A stretch of DNA of 50,439 nucleotides from the NCBI GenBank assembly GCA_026388255.1, contig JAPLKC010000133.1, forward strand, positions 1 through 50,439, read 5' to 3'. Positions 11,156-49,837 of this stretch are shown piece after piece (position 1 is the first letter of the stretch; every line of letters begins with the position of its first letter). The DNA is from Pseudomonadota bacterium (GTDB lineage: Bacteria; Desulfobacterota; Syntrophorhabdia; Syntrophorhabdales; Syntrophorhabdaceae). The notes under the pieces are model-generated. The model was not told the DNA's origin and ran no database searches. It saw nothing but the letters and a program-made list of their open reading frames with translations. Both the position numbers and the translations under genes were made by a program.

Positions 11156-13600
11156 ATGCACACATCTGTAATAACTATCCCGATTGAAGAGGAAATGAAA
11201 AGATCTTACCTTGACTATGCAATGAGCACAATAATAGGCAGGGCATTGCCGGACATCAGAGACGGCTTGAAACCGGTCCATAGAAGAATTTTGTTTGCAA
11301 TGTACGATTTGAACAACATGCACGACAAACCATATAAAAAATCTGCAAGGGTTGTCGGCGATGTCATCGGTAAGTATCACCCGCACGGAGATCAGTCAGT
11401 ATACGATGCAATCACGAGGATGGTGCAGGATTTTTCCCTCAGATATCCCTTGATAGATGGTCAGGGCAATTTTGGCTCCATAGACGGAGATGCACCTGCT
11501 GCAATGAGGTACACGGAAGTAAGACTTACAAGAATGGCCGAAGAGATACTGAAGGACATGGAGAAGGAAACGGTCTCTTTTAAGACAAACTATGATGACT
11601 CTCTCGTTGAACCTGTTGTCATGCCGTCAAAAATACCGAACCTGCTAATTAACGGCTCCTCCGGCATTGCAGTCGGTATGGCAACAAATATACCTCCCCA
11701 CAACCTCACGGAAATCATCAATGGCATAATATCGTATATTGATAATCCCGCTATTACGCTGGATGAACTTATAACGCTTATACCGGGACCGGATTTTCCC
11801 ACACATGCCATCATTTACGGCAGACAGGGGATAAGGGAAGCCTACGAAACAGGAAGAGGGCATATCATCCTGCGTGCGAGAGCCCAGATAGAAAAGAAAA
11901 AGGAGCACAAAGAGGCGATAGTCATAACGGAAATACCGTATCAGGTCAACAAGGCACGTCTTATTGAAAATATCGTAGAACTGATAAATGCAAAGCGGAT
12001 TGAGGGTATATCAAACATAAAAGATGAATCAAACAGGGAAGGTATGAGGATCGTTCTGGAGTTGAAAAGGGGTGAGATGGCCGAGCCCATTTTGAATCAA
12101 CTCTATAAGCACACCCAGCTCCAAACAACCTTCGGCATTATTTTCCTTGCAATTGTGAACAATGAGCCTAAAACCCTCACCCTGTTCCAGTTGATCGAAG
12201 AGTTTGTAAAATTCAGAAAAGATATAGTAACTAAAAGATCTATCTTTGAGTTGAATAAAGCCCTGGATCGGCTACATATCCTTGAAGGGTTCAAAATAGC
12301 GCTTGACCACATAGATGAAGTAATCAGTCTTATTAAACAGGCAAAAACGGTTGCAGAAGCACGGGCCTCACTGATAGAACGTTTTACCTTTTCCGAAAAG
12401 CAGGCTACGAGCATTCTGGAAATGCGTTTGCAACGCCTTACATCCCTTGAAAGAACAAAAATTCTTGACGACTATACCAGCACCTCAGAAGAAATAGCAA
12501 AATTGCAGCAGATTCTTGGAGACGAAACGCTCCTCATTGGAGTAATAAAAAAAGAGCTTATTGAAATAAAAGAAAAATATGGCGACGGCAGACTGACGGA
12601 AATAGTCGATCAACTGCCTGACATCACCAAGGAAGACATGATTAAAGAGGAAGAGGTCGTTGTAACTATCACATACCGTGGTTATACAAAGCGAACCCCC
12701 CTGGATCAGTACAAACACCAGGCAAGGGGCGGCAAAGGGAAAATAGGTTTTATAGTAAAGGAAGAAGATTTTGTAGATCATCTGTATGTTGCTTCCACAC
12801 ATTCCTATATAATATTCTTTACCAACTCCGGGAAGGCACACATTGTAAAAGTTCACACCATCCCCGAAGCCCCCATGTCATCAAAGGGGAAACCGATTAT
12901 TAACCTTGTAAACATCGATAAAACCGAAAGGATAACGGCTGTAGCACACGTGAAAGATTTTTCAGAGAACAAATATCTTTTCTTAGTCACAAAAAAGGGG
13001 CAGGTAAAGAAGATAAGTCTCGACTCCCTGAAGCACTTACGAGCTCCTGGCATACGCGTAATCAGCCTTCCGGAAGATGACAGCCTCATAGGGGTACTCG
13101 AAACTGAAGGACAAAACGAAATCGAGATTGCCACAAAAAAAGGCAAGTCAATAAGGTTTGAGGAAAAAGAGATACGGCCTATGGGCAGGGTTGCATACGG
13201 GATACGAGGCATAAGACTTACAAAAAATGATGAGGTGGTTTCTGTTGAAATTGTCAACCAGGACTGCAATGTTTTTACAGTAACCGAAAAGGGTTATGGA
13301 AAACGTGCGCCCTGCAGCGAATACAGGGTCCAGGCAAGAGGCGGTAAGGGCATCATAAGTGTAAGATGCGGGGCAAAAAACGGTGAAGTAGTATGTTTAA
13401 GACAGGTAAGCGAAAATGATGAAGTAATACTTACAACGGATAACGGAAGGACAATACGATTCAAAATCCAGGATATCCCTGTCCAGAAAAGAGGCGGTCT
13501 CGGAGTAAAACTTATGGACTTAAGGGGTGCTGAAAAAATAGTCGGCGCCGTGGTCACATCGGCAATGGCTGAGATAGCAGACACAACATTTGAGGAGTAA
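11156..13600 (+). CDS. gyrA: DNA gyrase subunit A
   Basis: This 814-aa protein is the breakage-reunion subunit of DNA gyrase. The N-terminal region (1-500) holds LDYAMSTIIGRALPDIRDGL, the quinolone region YHPHGDQSVYD and the active-site Tyr119 in AAMRYTE. The C-terminal beta-pinwheel has the GyrA box in the form QARGGKG near the domain start, which supports GyrA over ParC. The residue matching E. coli Ser83 is Gln80, while the Asp87 equivalent (Asp84) is kept. The gene is not adjacent to gyrB here. The ATG at 11156 has a GGAGG ribosome binding site and starts at the conserved N-terminus. Confidence 0.97.
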   Translation: MHTSVITIPIEEEMKRSYLDYAMSTIIGRALPDIRDGLKPVHRRILFAMYDLNNMHDKPYKKSARVVGDVIGKYHPHGDQSVYDAITRMVQDFSLRYPLIDGQGNFGSIDGDAPAAMRYTEVRLTRMAEEILKDMEKETVSFKTNYDDSLVEPVVMPSKIPNLLINGSSGIAVGMATNIPPHNLTEIINGIISYIDNPAITLDELITLIPGPDFPTHAIIYGRQGIREAYETGRGHIILRARAQIEKKKEHKEAIVITEIPYQVNKARLIENIVELINAKRIEGISNIKDESNREGMRIVLELKRGEMAEPILNQLYKHTQLQTTFGIIFLAIVNNEPKTLTLFQLIEEFVKFRKDIVTKRSIFELNKALDRLHILEGFKIALDHIDEVISLIKQAKTVAEARASLIERFTFSEKQATSILEMRLQRLTSLERTKILDDYTSTSEEIAKLQQILGDETLLIGVIKKELIEIKEKYGDGRLTEIVDQLPDITKEDMIKEEEVVVTITYRGYTKRTPLDQYKHQARGGKGKIGFIVKEEDFVDHLYVASTHSYIIFFTNSGKAHIVKVHTIPEAPMSSKGKPIINLVNIDKTERITAVAHVKDFSENKYLFLVTKKGQVKKISLDSLKHLRAPGIRVISLPEDDSLIGVLETEGQNEIEIATKKGKSIRFEEKEIRPMGRVAYGIRGIRLTKNDEVVSVEIVNQDCNVFTVTEKGYGKRAPCSEYRVQARGGKGIISVRCGAKNGEVVCLRQVSENDEVILTTDNGRTIRFKIQDIPVQKRGGLGVKLMDLRGAEKIVGAVVTSAMAEIADTTFEE

Positions 13601-13630
13601 CGGCAATTCCGGATTCTGGATGTTAGATGT

Positions 13631-13777
13631 TGATGCACTCGTAAAAGTCCAAAACCTGTCACTCCGGTGAAAACCGGAGTCCAGAACACATTGAAATCAC
13701 TGGATTCCCACGCTTGTGCCCTTCAGGGTATTCGTGGGAATGACAAAACGACAGAAATACGACTTTTCACGAGTTCA
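13631..13777. repeat. Dispersed palindromic element with terminal inverted repeats (copy 1)
   Basis: The element starts with TGATGCACTCGTAAAAGTC (13631-13649) and ends with an imperfect inverse, GACTTTTCACGAGTTCA (13761-13777). Inside are two hairpins: CTCCGG with CCGGAG (13662-13679), and ATTCCCACG with CGTGGGAAT enclosing CCCTTCAGGG (about 13704-13741). Related copies lie at 33413-33580 and, left-truncated, at 49112-49212. A stray end (TGATGCACTCGTAAA) is at 28024-28038. It has no coding capacity and fills most of the gyrA-gpsA spacer. Confidence 0.8.
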
Positions 13778-13830
13778 TTAGATGTTGGATTGTACATGAA
13801 AAAACAGATTAGAGTATGTAAACAATTCAA

Positions 13831-14847
13831 ATGTTAGAAAATAAAACAAAGTTGAAAATCGGGGTAATCGGCGCCGGTGCATGGGGGACTGCATTTTCCA
13901 TGCATCTTGTAAGAAAAGGCTACAAGGTACTTCTGTGGGTTTTTGAAAGGGAACTTTATGAAATACTTAAAAGAGAGCGGATAAACAGGTACTATCTGGA
14001 AGGTTTTTCATTACCTGCACAAATTGACTTTACCGATAATCTCTCTGAGCTCGCAGATTATTCAGATGATATCGTTATCGCAACACCTTCCTTTGCTTTG
14101 CAGGAAACCCTGGAAAAGGTATCCTGCCCCCTTTTGAATAAAAATATATTGCTCCTCACAAAAGGATTTGAAACAGAAACGCTGCTGCGCATGAGTGAGG
14201 TTGTAGAAAAATGCCTGGGCAGAAGAAATACCCGCATCGCAGTACTTTCAGGCCCATCCTTTGCAAAAGAGGTCGCCTTGGGTGCATTCACATCCGTTGT
14301 TGTGGCATCAAAACACAGCAAGCTTTCCTCATATTTTCAAAAACATATGCATGATGATAATTTTCGTATATATACAAGCAAAGACATTGTAGGTGTAGAA
14401 CTGGGCGGCGCAATGAAAAATGTCATGGCTATAGGCGCAGGCATTATAGAAGGTTTGGCGCTCGGCACAAACACCCAGGCAGCCTTCATAACACGAGCCC
14501 TTGCTGAAATCAAAAGACTCGGCAAGGCCCTTGGCGCAAAGGAAACCACCTTCATGGGTCTTTCCGGCATAGGCGACCTGATGCTCACATCCTATGGACA
14601 GCTCAGCAGGAACAGAATGTTCGGGGTAGAACTCTCAAAAGGAAAAAGACCGGAAGATATTATAAAATCACAGAACACTGTTGTTGAGGGGTACTACACG
14701 ATTAAGGCCGCATATAGACTCTCTAAAACACTGAACATAGAGATGCCTATCACTGAGGAACTGCATAAAGTCGTCTTTGAAGGGAAAAGCCTCCAGACGT
14801 CTCTCAAAGATATTAAGAGCAGGGCTCTTAAAGAAGAAGATATATAA
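13831..14847 (+). CDS. gpsA: Glycerol-3-phosphate dehydrogenase [NAD(P)+]
   Basis: This 338-aa enzyme reduces dihydroxyacetone phosphate to sn-glycerol 3-phosphate for membrane lipid synthesis. The Rossmann motif GVIGAGAWGTAFS is at about 12-24, followed by LSGPSFAKEV and the GVELGGAMKNVMAIGAGI segment with the catalytic lysine, then FMGLSGIGDLMLT. Length is normal. The start at 13831 lacks an obvious ribosome binding site, but it is the first Met before the Rossmann strand. It stands alone between a repeat element and a DUF6125-like gene. Confidence 0.96.
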   Translation: MLENKTKLKIGVIGAGAWGTAFSMHLVRKGYKVLLWVFERELYEILKRERINRYYLEGFSLPAQIDFTDNLSELADYSDDIVIATPSFALQETLEKVSCPLLNKNILLLTKGFETETLLRMSEVVEKCLGRRNTRIAVLSGPSFAKEVALGAFTSVVVASKHSKLSSYFQKHMHDDNFRIYTSKDIVGVELGGAMKNVMAIGAGIIEGLALGTNTQAAFITRALAEIKRLGKALGAKETTFMGLSGIGDLMLTSYGQLSRNRMFGVELSKGKRPEDIIKSQNTVVEGYYTIKAAYRLSKTLNIEMPITEELHKVVFEGKSLQTSLKDIKSRALKEEDI

Positions 14848-24067: not shown

Positions 24068-25675
24068 TTAAAATGTTTCAAATTCTTCATCCAGCTTGTC
24101 CTTGCCGTTGCCGAGATCAATCGGGACGCCGCCCGGTTTCATTCCGTTGCCGCTCTTGGTAACCCTGGCAGGAGTATGGGCAATTGTGCGCTGCGGCGCT
24201 TTATATTGTTCTTTGTGCGCCTTTGTCCCTGCAATTCTGTGATCCACAACTCCGGATTTTATCGCTGTTTTCTTTTTCCCGACCTCTTCAACTACGAAGA
24301 AGGCTATTGTATCCTGCAACTGCTCAGCCTGGGAAGATAGCTCTTCTGTCGTTGATGCCATCTGCTCTGTGGCCGAGGCATTCTGCTGGATAACTGAATC
24401 GAGCTGCTGGATGGCTTTATTGATCTGTTCCGCTCCGGTATTCTGTTCGTTGCTTGCAGCATTAATTTCACTGACAAGTTCCGCTGTTTTCTGGATATCA
24501 GGAACAATCCTTGTAAGCATTTCCCCTGCCTTTTCTGCAACTTCCACACTTGAACCGGATAGCTTGTTGATTTCTGCCGCTGCTGTCTGGCTTCTCTCTG
24601 CAAGCTTTCTTACCTCTGTTGCAACTACGGCAAAGCCTTTGCCGTGTTCACCGGCCCTGGCTGCTTCAATTGCGGCGTTTAAGGCAAGGAGGTTTGTCTG
24701 ACGGGCTATCTCTTCAATAATATTGATCTTTGTGGCAATCTCTTTCATGGCGGAAACAGTTTCCATCACTGCCTTGCCGCCTTCCCGTGCATCCTGGGCA
24801 GCTTTGAGCGCTATCTTTTCTGTCTGCTGCGCGTTATCGGCATTCTGTTTTATATTTGAGACCATCTGCTCCATGGAGGAGGATATCTCTTCTGCTGACG
24901 CTGCCTGTTCTGTTGCGCCCTGGGACATCTGCTGGGAGGAGGAACTCATCTGCTGGCCTCCTGTGGCAACATTATCGGAGGCGGTTTTAACATCATTTAC
25001 TACCTCGGTCAATTTCGCAACCATTTCAGCCAAAGCCCTCATCAGTTCATCCTGGGGTGAGCGCTCCCTTGCTGTTACCATAAGATTGCCGCCGGCTATC
25101 TCCTGCGCCATCTTTGTGACCTCATTCATTGCATCGATGAGCACATTCAGGTTATTCTTAATGATGTTGTACTGACCCTTATACTCTGCCGTGATATTAG
25201 AGGGGATGTCGCCTTTTGAAATCCGATCCACATACTCGGCCGTAACCATCAGAGGATTGACAATGTTGGTAATCGTGTCGTTCACCCCAGCCACCAGCTT
25301 GTTCCAACCACCGACAAAAATATCGGCATTGGCGCGCTTGTCAAGCTCACCATTAGCAGCCGCCTTAATGATCTTGTCCGTTTCTGCCAAAAGCTCGCTC
25401 ATCATTTTAACCACAGCGTTCAGATTGTTTTTGATGACGTTGTACTGGCCCTTGTACTCTACCGTGATCTCAGGCGGGATAATCCCCTTGCTGACTTTTT
25501 CCACGTAATCGGCCGTAACCATCAGAGGATTGACAATGTTGGTGACGATCTCGTTTATACCAACTACCAGTTGCTTCCACCCGCCAACAAACAGATCGGC
25601 ATTGGCACGCTTGTCAAGCACACCATCAGCAGCAGCTTTGATTACATGATTCGCCTCATTAAGAAGACCGCTCAT
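24068..25675 (-). CDS. Chemoreceptor 3' segment: two HAMP-like modules plus signalling domain
   Basis: This open segment of up to 535 aa starts at an internal Met ([11 protein letters not shown]). It holds HAMP-like modules (about 1-95 and 96-190, each with EYV(D/E)(R/K)(I/V)SKG and EYKGQYN(V/I)IKNNLN), a linker, then a coiled-coil signalling domain (about 215-470) with the hairpin tip [20 protein letters not shown] and [14 protein letters not shown]. Gln- and Glu-rich heptads on both arms are candidate methylation sites. The extreme C-terminus ends in EFETF, similar to the NWETF tail that tethers CheR and CheB in enteric receptors. If translated alone it would still be a soluble receptor able to contact CheA and CheW, but no ribosome binding site is evident at its Met. 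Confidence 0.8.
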
Positions 25676-25761
25676 TGTATCGATGCAGGCATTGAGGTTA
25701 TTCTTGATCTCATTAAAGTCACCGTTATAAATGTCGGTGATCTTCGGGGGAATATCTCCCT

Positions 25762-25841
25762 TACTTATTCTGTCTACATATTCAGCTGTGACATTGATGG
25801 GTACTTATTCTGTCTACATATTCAGCTGTGACATTGATGGG
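25762..25841. repeat. Exact 40-bp tandem duplication (frameshifting)
   Basis: Copies at 25762-25801 and 25802-25841 are identical and both begin TACTTATTCTGTCTACATAT. Because 40 is not a multiple of 3, the duplication moves the chemoreceptor frame and creates the tail THQCHS and a stop. Confidence 0.95.
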
Positions 25842-25972
25842 TCCGACAAAGGCATCGCACAAATTGTTGACGCCTCCGATCAGCTTACCCCATCCGCCGG
25901 CAAACCTGGCTGCTTCGCCGCGTGTTGCCAACTGACCTGCTACTGTCGCATTGACCAGTTTGTCTGTTTCTG

Positions 25973-26202
25973 CCAGAAGACCGCTCATTGTATCGATGCA
26001 GGCATTGAGGTTATTCTTGATCTCATTAAAGTCACCGTTATAAATGTCGGTGATCTTCGGGGGAATATCTCCCTTACTTATTCTGTCCCAGAAGACCGCT
26101 CATTGTATCGATGCAGGCATTGAGGTTATTCTTGATCTCATTAAAGTCACCGTTATAAATGTCGGTGATCTTCGGGGGAATATCTCCCTTACTTATTCTG
26201 TC
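25973..26202. repeat. Exact 115-bp tandem duplication (frameshifting)
   Basis: Copies at 25973-26087 and 26088-26202 are identical, beginning CCAGAAGACCGCTCATTG. A third copy of most of this sequence, from a neighbouring HAMP module, is at about 25669-25775. The added 115 bp shifts the chemoreceptor frame and gives the tail GQNK and a stop. Confidence 0.95.
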
Positions 26203-27891
26203 CACATATTCAGCCGTGACATTGAGAGGACCGATGACTGCATCAAGGGTTTCATTGAAACCTTTCAGAATTTTACGATATACACCTTGAAGTTTTTCCG
26301 CATCTGCCCTGGTTGCAAGCTTACCTTCTTTGGCTGCACCGATAATGACTCCTGTTTCATCAACAAGCGTATTCAATGTATCTATACACTGATTAAGGTT
26401 ATTTTTAATCTCATTAAAGTCACCTTTGTACTCATCTGTAATCCTCTGTGGTGTATCCCCCTTGCTGATCCTGTCCACATACTCTGCCGCCACGTTTAGA
26501 GGCCCGATGACTGCGTCGAGGGTCTGATTAACGCCTTCCACGATCTTTTTATATTCTCCCTGATGTTTTGATGCATCTGCTCTTGTTGCCAGTTTACCTT
26601 CTAAAGCAGCCTTAGCCAGCATACCGGTATCGTTTATCAGCAATTCAACAGTCTCCATGCATCCCATGACTGCAGGCAGCAGGTGATCTTCTTCGCTTCT
26701 TTTGCCCACCTTTTTCAGTTCTGCAAGCTCAGAAGTATTTCCTACAGCTATCTCGTTGATCTGTCTTGTTACGCCACGTAAACGGTCTCTCACCTCATTT
26801 GTTGCCTTGGCTATGGATGCAAATATTCCCTGATAGTTGCCTTCCACTGTCTTTGAATGGTCGTTGACCGTCATCCGGTGTAATACCGCATCAGACTCAA
26901 CCAAGCCCTGGAGTCCATCTATACAGTTGTTCAGGTTGTTCTTGATCTCGTTGAAGTCTCCATTGTATGTGTCGGTGATTTTCTGGGGGATTTCGCCCTT
27001 GCTGATCCTGTCTACATATTCGGCTGCTACGTTCAATGGCCCTATAACTGCGTCGAGGGTCTGATTAACACCTTCCACGATCTTTTTGTATTCTCCCTGA
27101 TGTTTGCTTGCATCTGCCCTTGTTGCCAGTTTACCTTCTAAAGCAGCTTTAGCAAGCATGCCGGTATCGTTTATCAGCAATTCAACGGTCTCCATGCATC
27201 CCATGACTGCAGGCAGCAGGTGATCTTCTTCGCTTCTCTTACCCACCTTTTTCAGTTCTGCAAGCTCAGAAGTATTGCCGACAGCTATCTCGTTAATTTG
27301 TCTTGTCACACCACGCAAGCGGTCTCTTACCTCATTTGTTGCCTTGGCTATAGATGCATATATTCCCTGATAGTTGCCTTCCACTGTCTTTGAATGGTCG
27401 TTGACCGTCATCCGGTGTAATACCGCATCAGACTCAACCAAGCCCTGGAGTCCGTCTATACAGTTGTTCAGGTTGTTCTTGATCTCATTGAAGTCTCCAT
27501 TGTATGTGTCGGTGATCTTCTGGGGGATTTCACCCTTGCTGATACGATCTACATATTCAGCCGCCACATTCAATGGCCCGATGACGGCATTAAGGGTCTG
27601 GTTAACACCTTCAACGATCTTTTTGTAGTCTCCCTGATGTTTGCTTGCATCGGCACGGGTTGCCAGTTTACCCTGTACTGCCGCATCTACAAGCATACCT
27701 GCATCGGCCACGAGGGCATTCAGAGGATTTGTGAAAGCTTCAATAATACCATTTACAGACTGCACAATTGTTTTGAGTCCATCATCGACCTTGGCTGTGT
27801 CACAGCGTTCACTCAACTTCCCGCCTGCAATAGCGCTACATACCCGATCTAATTCACTTTGAAGCAACTGAACTTTTCCGCTACTTAACAT
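26074..27891 (-). CDS. Chemoreceptor 5' segment: tandem HAMP-like modules
   Basis: This 605-aa open segment is the N-terminal part of the receptor. It starts MLSSGKVQLLQSEL without a signal or membrane helix, then carries repeated modules of the form ATRADA...VEGVNQTL(D/N)[19 protein letters not shown] (given in part) and [16 protein letters not shown]. Between modules lies a segment (VLHRMTVNDHSKTVEGNYQG) that recurs 179 residues later, reflecting a 537-bp tandem duplication. The frame ends in the aberrant tail GQNK caused by the 115-bp duplication. Alone it would lack a signalling domain. Confidence 0.8.
   Translation of the reverse strand: MLSSGKVQLLQSELDRVCSAIAGGKLSERCDTAKVDDGLKTIVQSVNGIIEAFTNPLNALVADAGMLVDAAVQGKLATRADASKHQGDYKKIVEGVNQTLNAVIGPLNVAAEYVDRISKGEIPQKITDTYNGDFNEIKNNLNNCIDGLQGLVESDAVLHRMTVNDHSKTVEGNYQGIYASIAKATNEVRDRLRGVTRQINEIAVGNTSELAELKKVGKRSEEDHLLPAVMGCMETVELLINDTGMLAKAALEGKLATRADASKHQGEYKKIVEGVNQTLDAVIGPLNVAAEYVDRISKGEIPQKITDTYNGDFNEIKNNLNNCIDGLQGLVESDAVLHRMTVNDHSKTVEGNYQGIFASIAKATNEVRDRLRGVTRQINEIAVGNTSELAELKKVGKRSEEDHLLPAVMGCMETVELLINDTGMLAKAALEGKLATRADASKHQGEYKKIVEGVNQTLDAVIGPLNVAAEYVDRISKGDTPQRITDEYKGDFNEIKNNLNQCIDTLNTLVDETGVIIGAAKEGKLATRADAEKLQGVYRKILKGFNETLDAVIGPLNVTAEYVDRISKGDIPPKITDIYNGDFNEIKNNLNACIDTMSGLLGQNK
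26461..27534. repeat. 537-bp tandem module duplication in the chemoreceptor
   Basis: Segments 26461-26997 and 26998-27534 are highly similar over 537 bp (179 codons, in frame), each starting at CTTGCTGATCCTGTC. A third partial copy begins at about 27535. Differences are mostly synonymous, so the duplication is recent or kept uniform by gene conversion. Confidence 0.85.
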
Positions 27892-28052
27892 ACCCGATCC
27901 CTCCTTTTTGTTTGCTCCTTATTATCTAAAGCCATCTTTTTCTTCTGATATCCATTATTTTGGTTTATTCTATTTGTCTGTCCCATTGTTTATATCTCCT
28001 CCATTCTTTGTTTCAAAACACCTTTGATGCACTCGTAAATAGTCGTGCTCCG

Positions 28053-28658: not shown

Positions 28659-29095
28659 TTCATCCTTTCGATGAAGACAGTGAATAGTCGTTAGTGAATA
28701 GTGAATAATTTAAAGAAAGCAAATAGTGATTCATATCGCCTATTGCCTGCCTTCCTGCCAAAGCAGGTTTGTCAAAAGCAAAACCTCTATTTTCTTTTAT
28801 TTTGCCGCCCGCTATCGCTCGACAAATGCGGACAAGGGCGGATGAATATTGATGAATAGTGTTTTGATAGCCGGTGACATTGCCGCCTATCAAATATTCA
28901 GCCCTAACGGGCGAATATATTAAATTTTTACTCTGCCCTAAGGGCATGGAGTATATCGGGTGCCAGGTCGGCAGCCGATATGAAATACTGTCCAGCTTTT
29001 GTCTGCGTCCGTCTGCGGCTGAATAAAAAAGGTTTTTCATGCAGCCTTTGAGAATACCCTTGCCTTTATTTCGATATTAGGGTTTGCATTTGCAT
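28659..29095. other. Gene-free spacer with dispersed repeats
   Basis: This 437-bp gap between the MBL gene and cheR has no convincing gene. It holds a short repeat built on GTGAATAGT (about 28680-28707, also at 33391-33416). It also holds a 39-bp repeat (28803-28841) whose inverse occurs at 49941-49977, with the shared core TTGTCGAGCG. A run of short inverted repeats such as TTCGCCCGTTAGGGC against GCCCTAACGGGCGAA lies at about 28895-28920. Confidence 0.55.
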
Positions 29096-33364: not shown

Positions 33365-33412
33365 TAAGGACCGTGAATAGTAAAGAGGCAGTGGATAGTC
33401 GTTAGTGAATAG

Positions 33413-33580
33413 TGATGAACGCGTAAAAAGTCTTACGTCGTTTTGTCATTCCCATCTGTCGTTTCGTCATTCCCGCGAAAGTGGGAATCCGGTGATTTTA
33501 ATTTGTTCTGGACTCCCGTGCTTGTGCCCTTCAGGGTATTCACGGGAGTGACGGTTTTTTTACTTTTTACGAGTGCATCA
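33413..33580. repeat. Dispersed palindromic element (copy 2)
   Basis: The ends are TGATGAACGCGTAAAAAGTC (left) and TTTTTACGAGTGCATCA (right), forming imperfect terminal inverted repeats. The inside holds CATTCCCGCGAAAGTGGGAA and a hairpin GACTCCCGTG with CACGGGAGTG enclosing CCCTTCAGGG. It shares its right half, nearly base for base, with 49157-49212 and the overall layout with 13631-13777. Confidence 0.8.
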
Positions 33581-48696: not shown

Positions 48697-48807
48697 GAAC
48701 ACCGGATACCCTCTGGGTTCCCGCTCCCCGATAGAACCATTCGAGGACAAGCTTCGCGGGCATGACGGGCAAGCGGATGCGTGGACGGGCAAGCGATTGG
48801 GAATGAA

Positions 48808-49098
48808 ATGAAACAATTCTATGTCTATATGCTATGCAGTAAACGAAACGGAACCCTCTATACAGGCGTAACCTCCGACCTCATAAAACGTATCTATGAA
48901 CATAAAAACAACCTGGTTGAGGGCTTTACCAATTCATACAGTGTCCACCGACTTGTCTGGTATGAACAACATGAATCAGCCGAATCAGCTATTACCCGTG
49001 AAAAACAGCTAAAAAAATGGAACAGGGCATGGAAGTTGGATTTGATTGAAAAAAATAATTCTGAGTGGAATGATTTATATGAGAATATATGTAAGTAA
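48808..49098 (+). CDS. Single-domain GIY-YIG endonuclease (UPF0213-like)
   Basis: This 96-aa protein starts at the ATG at 48808, where the family homology begins. It has the motif in the form YVYMLCSKRNGTLYTGVT, a catalytic-type Arg in LIKRIYEHKN, and Glu residues in WYEQHES and AITREKQLKKW, as in the UPF0213 group of small GIY-YIG proteins. These are stand-alone nuclease-like proteins of uncertain role. The gene is flanked on both sides by palindromic repeats (48661-48757 and 49112-49212), and an in-frame upstream GTG at 48781 lies within repeat-like sequence. Link to repeat mobility is inference. Confidence 0.9.
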   Translation: MKQFYVYMLCSKRNGTLYTGVTSDLIKRIYEHKNNLVEGFTNSYSVHRLVWYEQHESAESAITREKQLKKWNRAWKLDLIEKNNSEWNDLYENICK

Positions 49099-49111: not shown

Positions 49112-49212
49112 CCTCTGGAATCCAGTGCTTCAATGTGTTCTGGAATCCAGTGCTTGTGCTCTTCAGGGTATTCACGGGAGTGACGGTTTTTTTACTTTTT
49201 ACGAGTGCATCA
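49112..49212. repeat. Dispersed palindromic element (copy 3, left end lost)
   Basis: It contains the half-element GGAATCCAGTGCTTGTGC, then CTTCAGGGTATTCACGGGAG, and ends TTTTTACGAGTGCATCA, almost the same as the right half of 33413-33580. No left terminal repeat is visible. It lies between the GIY-YIG gene and cheD. Confidence 0.75.
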
Positions 49213-49240: not shown

Positions 49241-49837
49241 ATGAAAATTAAAATTTTGAAAAACTATAAGCATATTACTATTAGTCCTGGTGAATATTAC
49301 GTTTCTAATGAAGAGGTTTTGATTACCACACTATTGGGTTCTTGCGTTTCGGCTTGCCTTTATGACCATTACAATAAAATCGTCGGGATGAACCACTTTC
49401 TGCTTAGCAGCAAGCGTTACTCCAGAGACATGCCTATTCATACTACAGACGCAGGCCGTTATGGCATCCATTCAATGGAGTTGCTGATCAATGAGATGCT
49501 GAAACGGGGCGCAGTGCGAGGTAATTTAAAAGCCAAAGCCTTTGGAGGGGGTTCTGTTCTGAGAACCATCAATTCACCCACAAGTAATTATTTTGCGGTT
49601 GGAGAAGTAAATGTACGATTTATTCGGGAATTTCTTAAAAACGAAAATATACCCTTGGTTTCTTCCGATTTAGGAGGCTTTGCCGGAAGAGTGATTTATT
49701 TTTATTCAGAGGATTTTTCCGTTAATGTAAAAAAAATGGCCAAAACAGGCGGCAGCCTGATAAAAAAAGAAGAGCAATACTGGAAAAAATCCATGCAGAA
49801 GCAAGAGGAAACAGAAACACAGATCGATCTGTGGTAA
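49241..49837 (+). CDS. cheD: Chemoreceptor glutamine deamidase CheD
   Basis: This 198-aa protein deamidates (or demethylates) receptor glutamines to fit the methylation system. The catalytic triad is visible: Thr29, Cys35 in LLGSCVSACLYD, and His52 in GMNHFLL, with the same 6- and 17-residue spacings as in characterised CheD. Further family segments are TTDAGRYGIHSMELLI and AKAFGGGSVL. The C-terminus is about 30 residues longer than in minimal CheD and rich in Lys and Gln. It is about 17 kb from cheA and 250 bp ahead of a CheY-like gene, so it probably serves the cluster at 20-33 kb, or another one beyond the right edge. Confidence 0.95.
   Translation: MKIKILKNYKHITISPGEYYVSNEEVLITTLLGSCVSACLYDHYNKIVGMNHFLLSSKRYSRDMPIHTTDAGRYGIHSMELLINEMLKRGAVRGNLKAKAFGGGSVLRTINSPTSNYFAVGEVNVRFIREFLKNENIPLVSSDLGGFAGRVIYFYSEDFSVNVKKMAKTGGSLIKKEEQYWKKSMQKQEETETQIDLW

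Follow-up and report, generated by a model that had tools for sequence, protein, structure and literature searches.

The intergenic region between gyrA and gpsA in the window (the whole stretch of DNA analysed, 50,439 nucleotides) contains a short element with inverted ends, and two further copies and a solo end are located elsewhere in the window (Table 1). Copy 1 is bounded by TGATGCACTCGTAAAAgtcc and GACTTTTcACGAGTTCATTA, with GATGT at either flank; a terminator- or promoter-like site was looked for in this copy and none was found, and no Rfam family matched in the window. Copy 3 has retained an intact right end, the best left-end match in the stretch searched having six mismatches. The solo end deviates at one of the 17 specified bases; within the next 560 bases every candidate partner has at least seven mismatches, and this end is probably a relic.

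Table 1. Coordinates of the element copies and of their parts in the window.
Feature	Position	Strand	Remarks
Left target-site duplication GATGT	13626..13630	.	Sister species has a single copy, one base shorter
Copy 1 (putative MITE)	13631..13780	+	Both ends; between gyrA (11156-13600) and gpsA (13831-14847)
Left terminal inverted repeat, copy 1	13631..13650	+	A-run one base shorter than in the consensus
Inner hairpin A, copy 1	13658..13684	+	GTCACTCC..GGAGTCCAG
Inner hairpin B, copy 1	13700..13744	-	Nested CCCTTCAGGG
Right terminal inverted repeat, copy 1	13761..13780	-	
Right target-site duplication GATGT	13781..13785	.	
Copy 2 (putative MITE)	33413..33580	-	Both ends; no target duplication
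Inner hairpin B, copy 2	33508..33552	-	
Copy 3 (putative MITE)	49117..49212	-	Left part lost; directly upstream of cheD (49241-49837)
Inner hairpin B, copy 3	49140..49184	-	
Solo end	28025..28044	+	

An earlier note on this DNA had placed copy 1 at 13631-13777, copy 2 at 33413-33580, a truncated copy 3 at 49112-49212 and a single end at 28024-28038, with shared ends of 19 bases in inverted orientation. The coordinates of copy 2 hold. The start of copy 1 was correct and its true end is at 13780; the right end and the truncation of copy 3 stand, its extent now being about 49117-49212; and the solo end is real, with its coordinates shifted to 28025-28044. The ends are indeed inverted, their length being 20 bases, of which three are free positions. 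The hairpin core described there, CCCTTCAGGG, was found in copies 1 and 2, and copy 3 has CTCTTCAGGG instead.

Several other features were observed in the window. A small gene with a GIY-YIG nuclease domain (48781-49098) is located directly upstream of copy 3. A separate dispersed repeat, similar to GTGAATAGTCGTTAGTGAATAGTGA, occurs at 28675-28704 and 33386-33415 and also to the left of the element at locus L005; it adjoins the left end of copy 2 and that of the copy on contig C75. Long direct repeats (four of 300 nt and seven of 136 nt) occupy positions 25116-27753, a gene region with several HAMP domains.

The end search proposed in the earlier note was run over the complete assembly of the same genome (3.83 Mb, 147 contigs), where the ends do recur: a 16-base end, allowing two mismatches, gave 30 matches vs none in the reversed control. 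Both ends are kept in 12 copies of 125-168 bp, seven of which have an exact 4- or 5-bp duplication, and one end is kept at six further places (on contigs C75 and C114, at C24:12491, at a contig end of C122, and, in the window, copy 3 and the solo end). The ends would have looked accidental if the hairpins had recurred without them, as the earlier note argued; all 24 strict inner hairpins of the genome (pattern GTCANTCCN{6,30}GGANTCCAG) lie inside elements in which one outer end or both are kept. BLAST also gave six weaker matches to the interior (C96, C25, C80:19447, C33, C93 and C11; E-values 4e-6 to 2e-4), located on contigs with no end at up to three mismatches, except for one at C80:19669. 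A pair of ends spanning 795 bp on contig C114 was rejected as a chance match, since its right end has three mismatches, a number at which the reversed control also gives matches (19 in this genome), and there is no duplication.

In the sister species G001, which belongs to the same genus and has zero exact ends in its genome, gyrA and gpsA are adjacent and the element is absent. Removal of the element and one GATGT from the window yields the empty site TTAGATGTTGGA, which aligns with TTAGAT-TTGGA of G001, the only genome used for this alignment. The gpsA loci were fetched for 12 of 13 relatives, and an apparent 3' part of gyrA is seen by eye directly upstream of gpsA in three of them (L388, L395 and L397).

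Across relatives, the end consensus is TGATGnnnTCGTAAAAAGTC, inverted at the opposite side. Exact ends were found in 33 of 148 relatives (none in the reversed control), with a maximum of 198 in G136, followed by 81 in G083 and 56 in G064. For the analysis of insertion sites, 123 distinct short elements were collected (60-320 bp, both flanks present, both ends with at most four mismatches per end and five in total). In this set, which is non-random, as places were picked from listings, often for looking unpaired, and in which one locus of the own genome is counted twice because of a second end 65 bp upstream, exact duplications of 4 bp flank 59 elements and those of 5 bp flank eight (67 of 123 together, the target-site duplications that the earlier note had advised looking for); the other 56 have neither. 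In an earlier set of 119 elements the 4-bp duplication was present in 56, vs a mean of 2.1 and a maximum of 7 with shuffled pairing. The target is A-N4-T: A precedes the left 4 bp in 110 of 123 elements, and T follows the right 4 bp in 105. Where a right end and a left end are neighbours within 60 bp, they are exactly 4 bp apart in six of eight pairs. Two of these tandems (L271 and L283) consist of an insertion sequence and a MITE, with ACCT occurring three times; the hairpins beside these two insertion sequences were considered as a part of them, and this was rejected given the tandem arrangement.

The ends remain constant across species, and the folded middle is replaced by unrelated sequence. 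Under a strict rule the interiors form 23 clusters (52, 35, 9, 6, 2 and 2 members, and 17 singles); under a looser rule there are 13, with REP-type and other elements chained together. As some of the singles are variants of larger clusters, we read, without computing it, about ten unrelated kinds. Compared with their own shuffles, cluster representatives fold better (median z -2.8), which is hardly so for neighbouring DNA (median -0.23 over 118 stretches); the exceptions among the 23 are three representatives, including the 112-bp type of G049, which fold no better than chance. The interiors comprise many unrelated sequences, most of which form hairpins, the REP-like pair of the window copies among them. 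Yet another cargo was observed on an IMG/VR contig (L200, positions 1-117), where an end of the same type adjoins a different palindrome of the CTGAGCCCGTCGAAGGGTGA type.

The REP-like interior brings up another explanation, namely that these are REP/BIME elements which a Y1 (RAYT-type) transposase has spread and which acquired their outer ends by accident. In its favour, two REP-like hairpins in inverted orientation make up the interior, with co-varying arms (21 REP-type elements, chosen from the 25 that measure 133-135 bp, show changes on both sides in some sequence at 8 of 35 predicted pairs), and two Y1_Tnp genes are present in the own genome (C120:8008-8367 and C53:5081-5401; L039 and L040), one with a 149-aa and one with a 227-aa open frame. 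However, none of the 24 strict hairpins is located on the contigs of these genes, the same ends enclose unrelated interiors, and the elements have 20-base inverted ends and 4-bp duplications; this explanation is already disfavoured, and we regard it as very improbable.

A transposase gene bounded by the same ends, which the earlier note had suggested looking for, was found in other genomes. G049 has a 1428-bp element between these ends with a decayed IS1182-like gene, and relatives of this gene in G077, G041, G129 and G080 are likewise located at such ends. One contig scan for the transposase gave 38 loci, 28 of them evaluable, i.e., with sufficient flanking sequence to the left and right. At 20 of the 28, two of which (L267 and L281) appear to be the query copies themselves, both ends are present with three mismatches or fewer each, vs none with 60 shuffled decoys; the eight others are L273, L284, L290, L295, L298, L301, L302 and L303. 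The 20 two-ended loci have duplications of 4 bp (11 loci), 5 bp (one) or 6 bp (two), or none (six), and include three separate insertions in one Desulfosarcina widdelii genome, all of which have exact 4-bp duplications. For L271 and L283 the measured span took in the tandem MITE; their own right ends, at 2060 and 4077, give about 1.9 kb. The end-sharing insertion sequences are about 1.9 kb in length and encode an intact IS1182-like DDE transposase of 555-584 aa. Pfam domains DUF772 (PF05598) and DDE_Tnp_1_6 (PF13751) score above cut-off in all five intact transposases. The best NCBIfam model is NF033551 (IS1182), with 142-184 bits, below the cut-off of 270 in all five, and the transposase is therefore named IS1182-like. 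D173, D377 and E501 are invariant across the five and fit a DDE triad, by our own assignment. The interiors of the MITEs do not resemble the end-sharing insertion sequence: in a BLAST comparison with 14 of its copies, the matches listed were to the MITE adjoining L271 and L283 and to the end sequence.

A transposase of the kind postulated as unseen in the earlier note is present in other genomes, but the genome of the window has no recognisable copy of it, with no match to the end-sharing transposase at E <= 1e-3. Matches of at least 50% identity were found in seven of the 33 genomes with exact ends (G041, G049, G064, G077, G083, G129 and G143) vs two of the 115 without them (G060 and G080; Fisher p = 4e-4). 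The remaining 26 of the 33, including G136 with its 198 ends, have no such match, which could mean that the MITEs are moved by some other, unseen transposase family whose end is similar, and that the IS1182-like insertion sequences merely share this end by common descent or convergence. Against this, MITEs and insertion sequences agree in the 17 specified bases, in duplication length and in the A-N4-T pattern, and at L271 and L283 they stand in tandem on the same ACCT target; a different family thus seems most unlikely. In G083, with its 81 ends, the same transposase C-terminus is cut off at seven or more contig ends, directly before the end sequence, and such breaks show how transposase copies can hide. 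The scan records include Deltaproteobacteria, Nitrospinaceae, Gammaproteobacteria, SAR324, Neomarinimicrobiota, Glassbacteria, KSB3 and Planctomycetales; they are mostly metagenome bins, and misbinning is therefore possible.

Several other candidates for the partner were rejected. In the own genome, the IS1182-like fragments on C8 and C103 have no such ends and do not match the transposase of this clade, and the candidate on C106 looks IS5-like by eye. The fragments on C8 and C103 (L350 and L351) represent a different IS1182-like element, which is apparently present in several copies and interrupted where the contigs stop. Intact IS1182-like genes with about 33% identity in the family and order of the window's genome (G018, G028, G032, G036 and G037) have no ends at up to three mismatches. 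In G136, an IS1182 gene above the NCBIfam cut-off is encoded on contig C106, but the nearby ends are those of a separate MITE. Finally, a candidate of 2.7 kb bounded by two ends in G083 (L123) showed no ORF resembling a transposase on inspection and lacks a matching duplication.

The MITE reading of the earlier note is supported by the terminal inverted repeats, the target-site duplications, the empty site in the sister species and the intact transposase gene between the same ends. We consider it highly probable from these sequence comparisons that the elements are MITEs whose 20-base ends are worked in trans by an IS1182-like DDE transposase with an A-N4-T target and a 4-bp, sometimes 5-bp, duplication. 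In such a mechanism the enzyme would cut and join the inverted ends and insert the element at A-N4-T, giving rise to the duplication; since the first base of an element is T and its last base A, every insertion would re-create A-N4-T at both of its junctions. The IS1182-like transposase would be what moves these MITEs, and the species of the window may have lost it or met it only briefly. The ends alone would appear to suffice, so that unrelated palindromic DNA between two of them could become a new MITE. A broader version, which we put forward as tentative and rather doubtful, is that the 20-base ends are all that the transposase requires and that hairpin cargo is tolerated or favoured, many REP-like palindromes being repeatedly captured cargo of one IS1182-like group; with the target rebuilt at both junctions, elements would therefore stack in tandem on one target.

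The proposed relationship would connect the abundant unclassified palindromes of these genomes with a single group of transposases, for which the recognition end and the target rule are named. Moreover, constant ends with a free interior provide a natural system in which to study the requirements of a MITE beyond its ends and the reasons for the predominance of hairpins in the interior. Literature searches on IS1182 with MITE found no account of this element family, and the end core was found in print only in two papers, both with unrelated titles.

The closest known systems include the IS1182 family (e.g., IS1272 of staphylococci), which has the same transposase domains, DUF772 and DDE_Tnp_1_6, and gives the best NCBIfam match. 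According to PMC5678879, some members of the family, as cited there, target palindromes, and IS1272 is reported to replace inverted repeats without target duplication. Compared with IS1272 as described there, the present group duplicates 4 bp at A-N4-T and scores under the NCBIfam IS1182 cut-off; the palindrome targeting offers a lead, and only a lead, to the origin of the palindromes between the ends. The interior of the window copies is, like REP/BIME palindromes, a pair of inverted REP-type hairpins, but the elements described here are bounded by 20-base ends and target duplications and have no adjoining Y1 transposase gene. The Chunjie MITE of Geobacter uraniireducens, as described in the review PMC10969869, is likewise multi-copy and intergenic, with conserved ends and variable size; it measures 178-235 bp, in contrast to 125-168 bp for the two-ended copies of the own genome. 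Finally, in archaeal MITEs only the terminal repeats match the autonomous partner insertion sequence (PMC3852290), and here, too, the ends alone are common to the MITE and its presumed partner; unlike the archaeal elements described there, the present ones have a single type of end around many unrelated interiors, in different families of one phylum.
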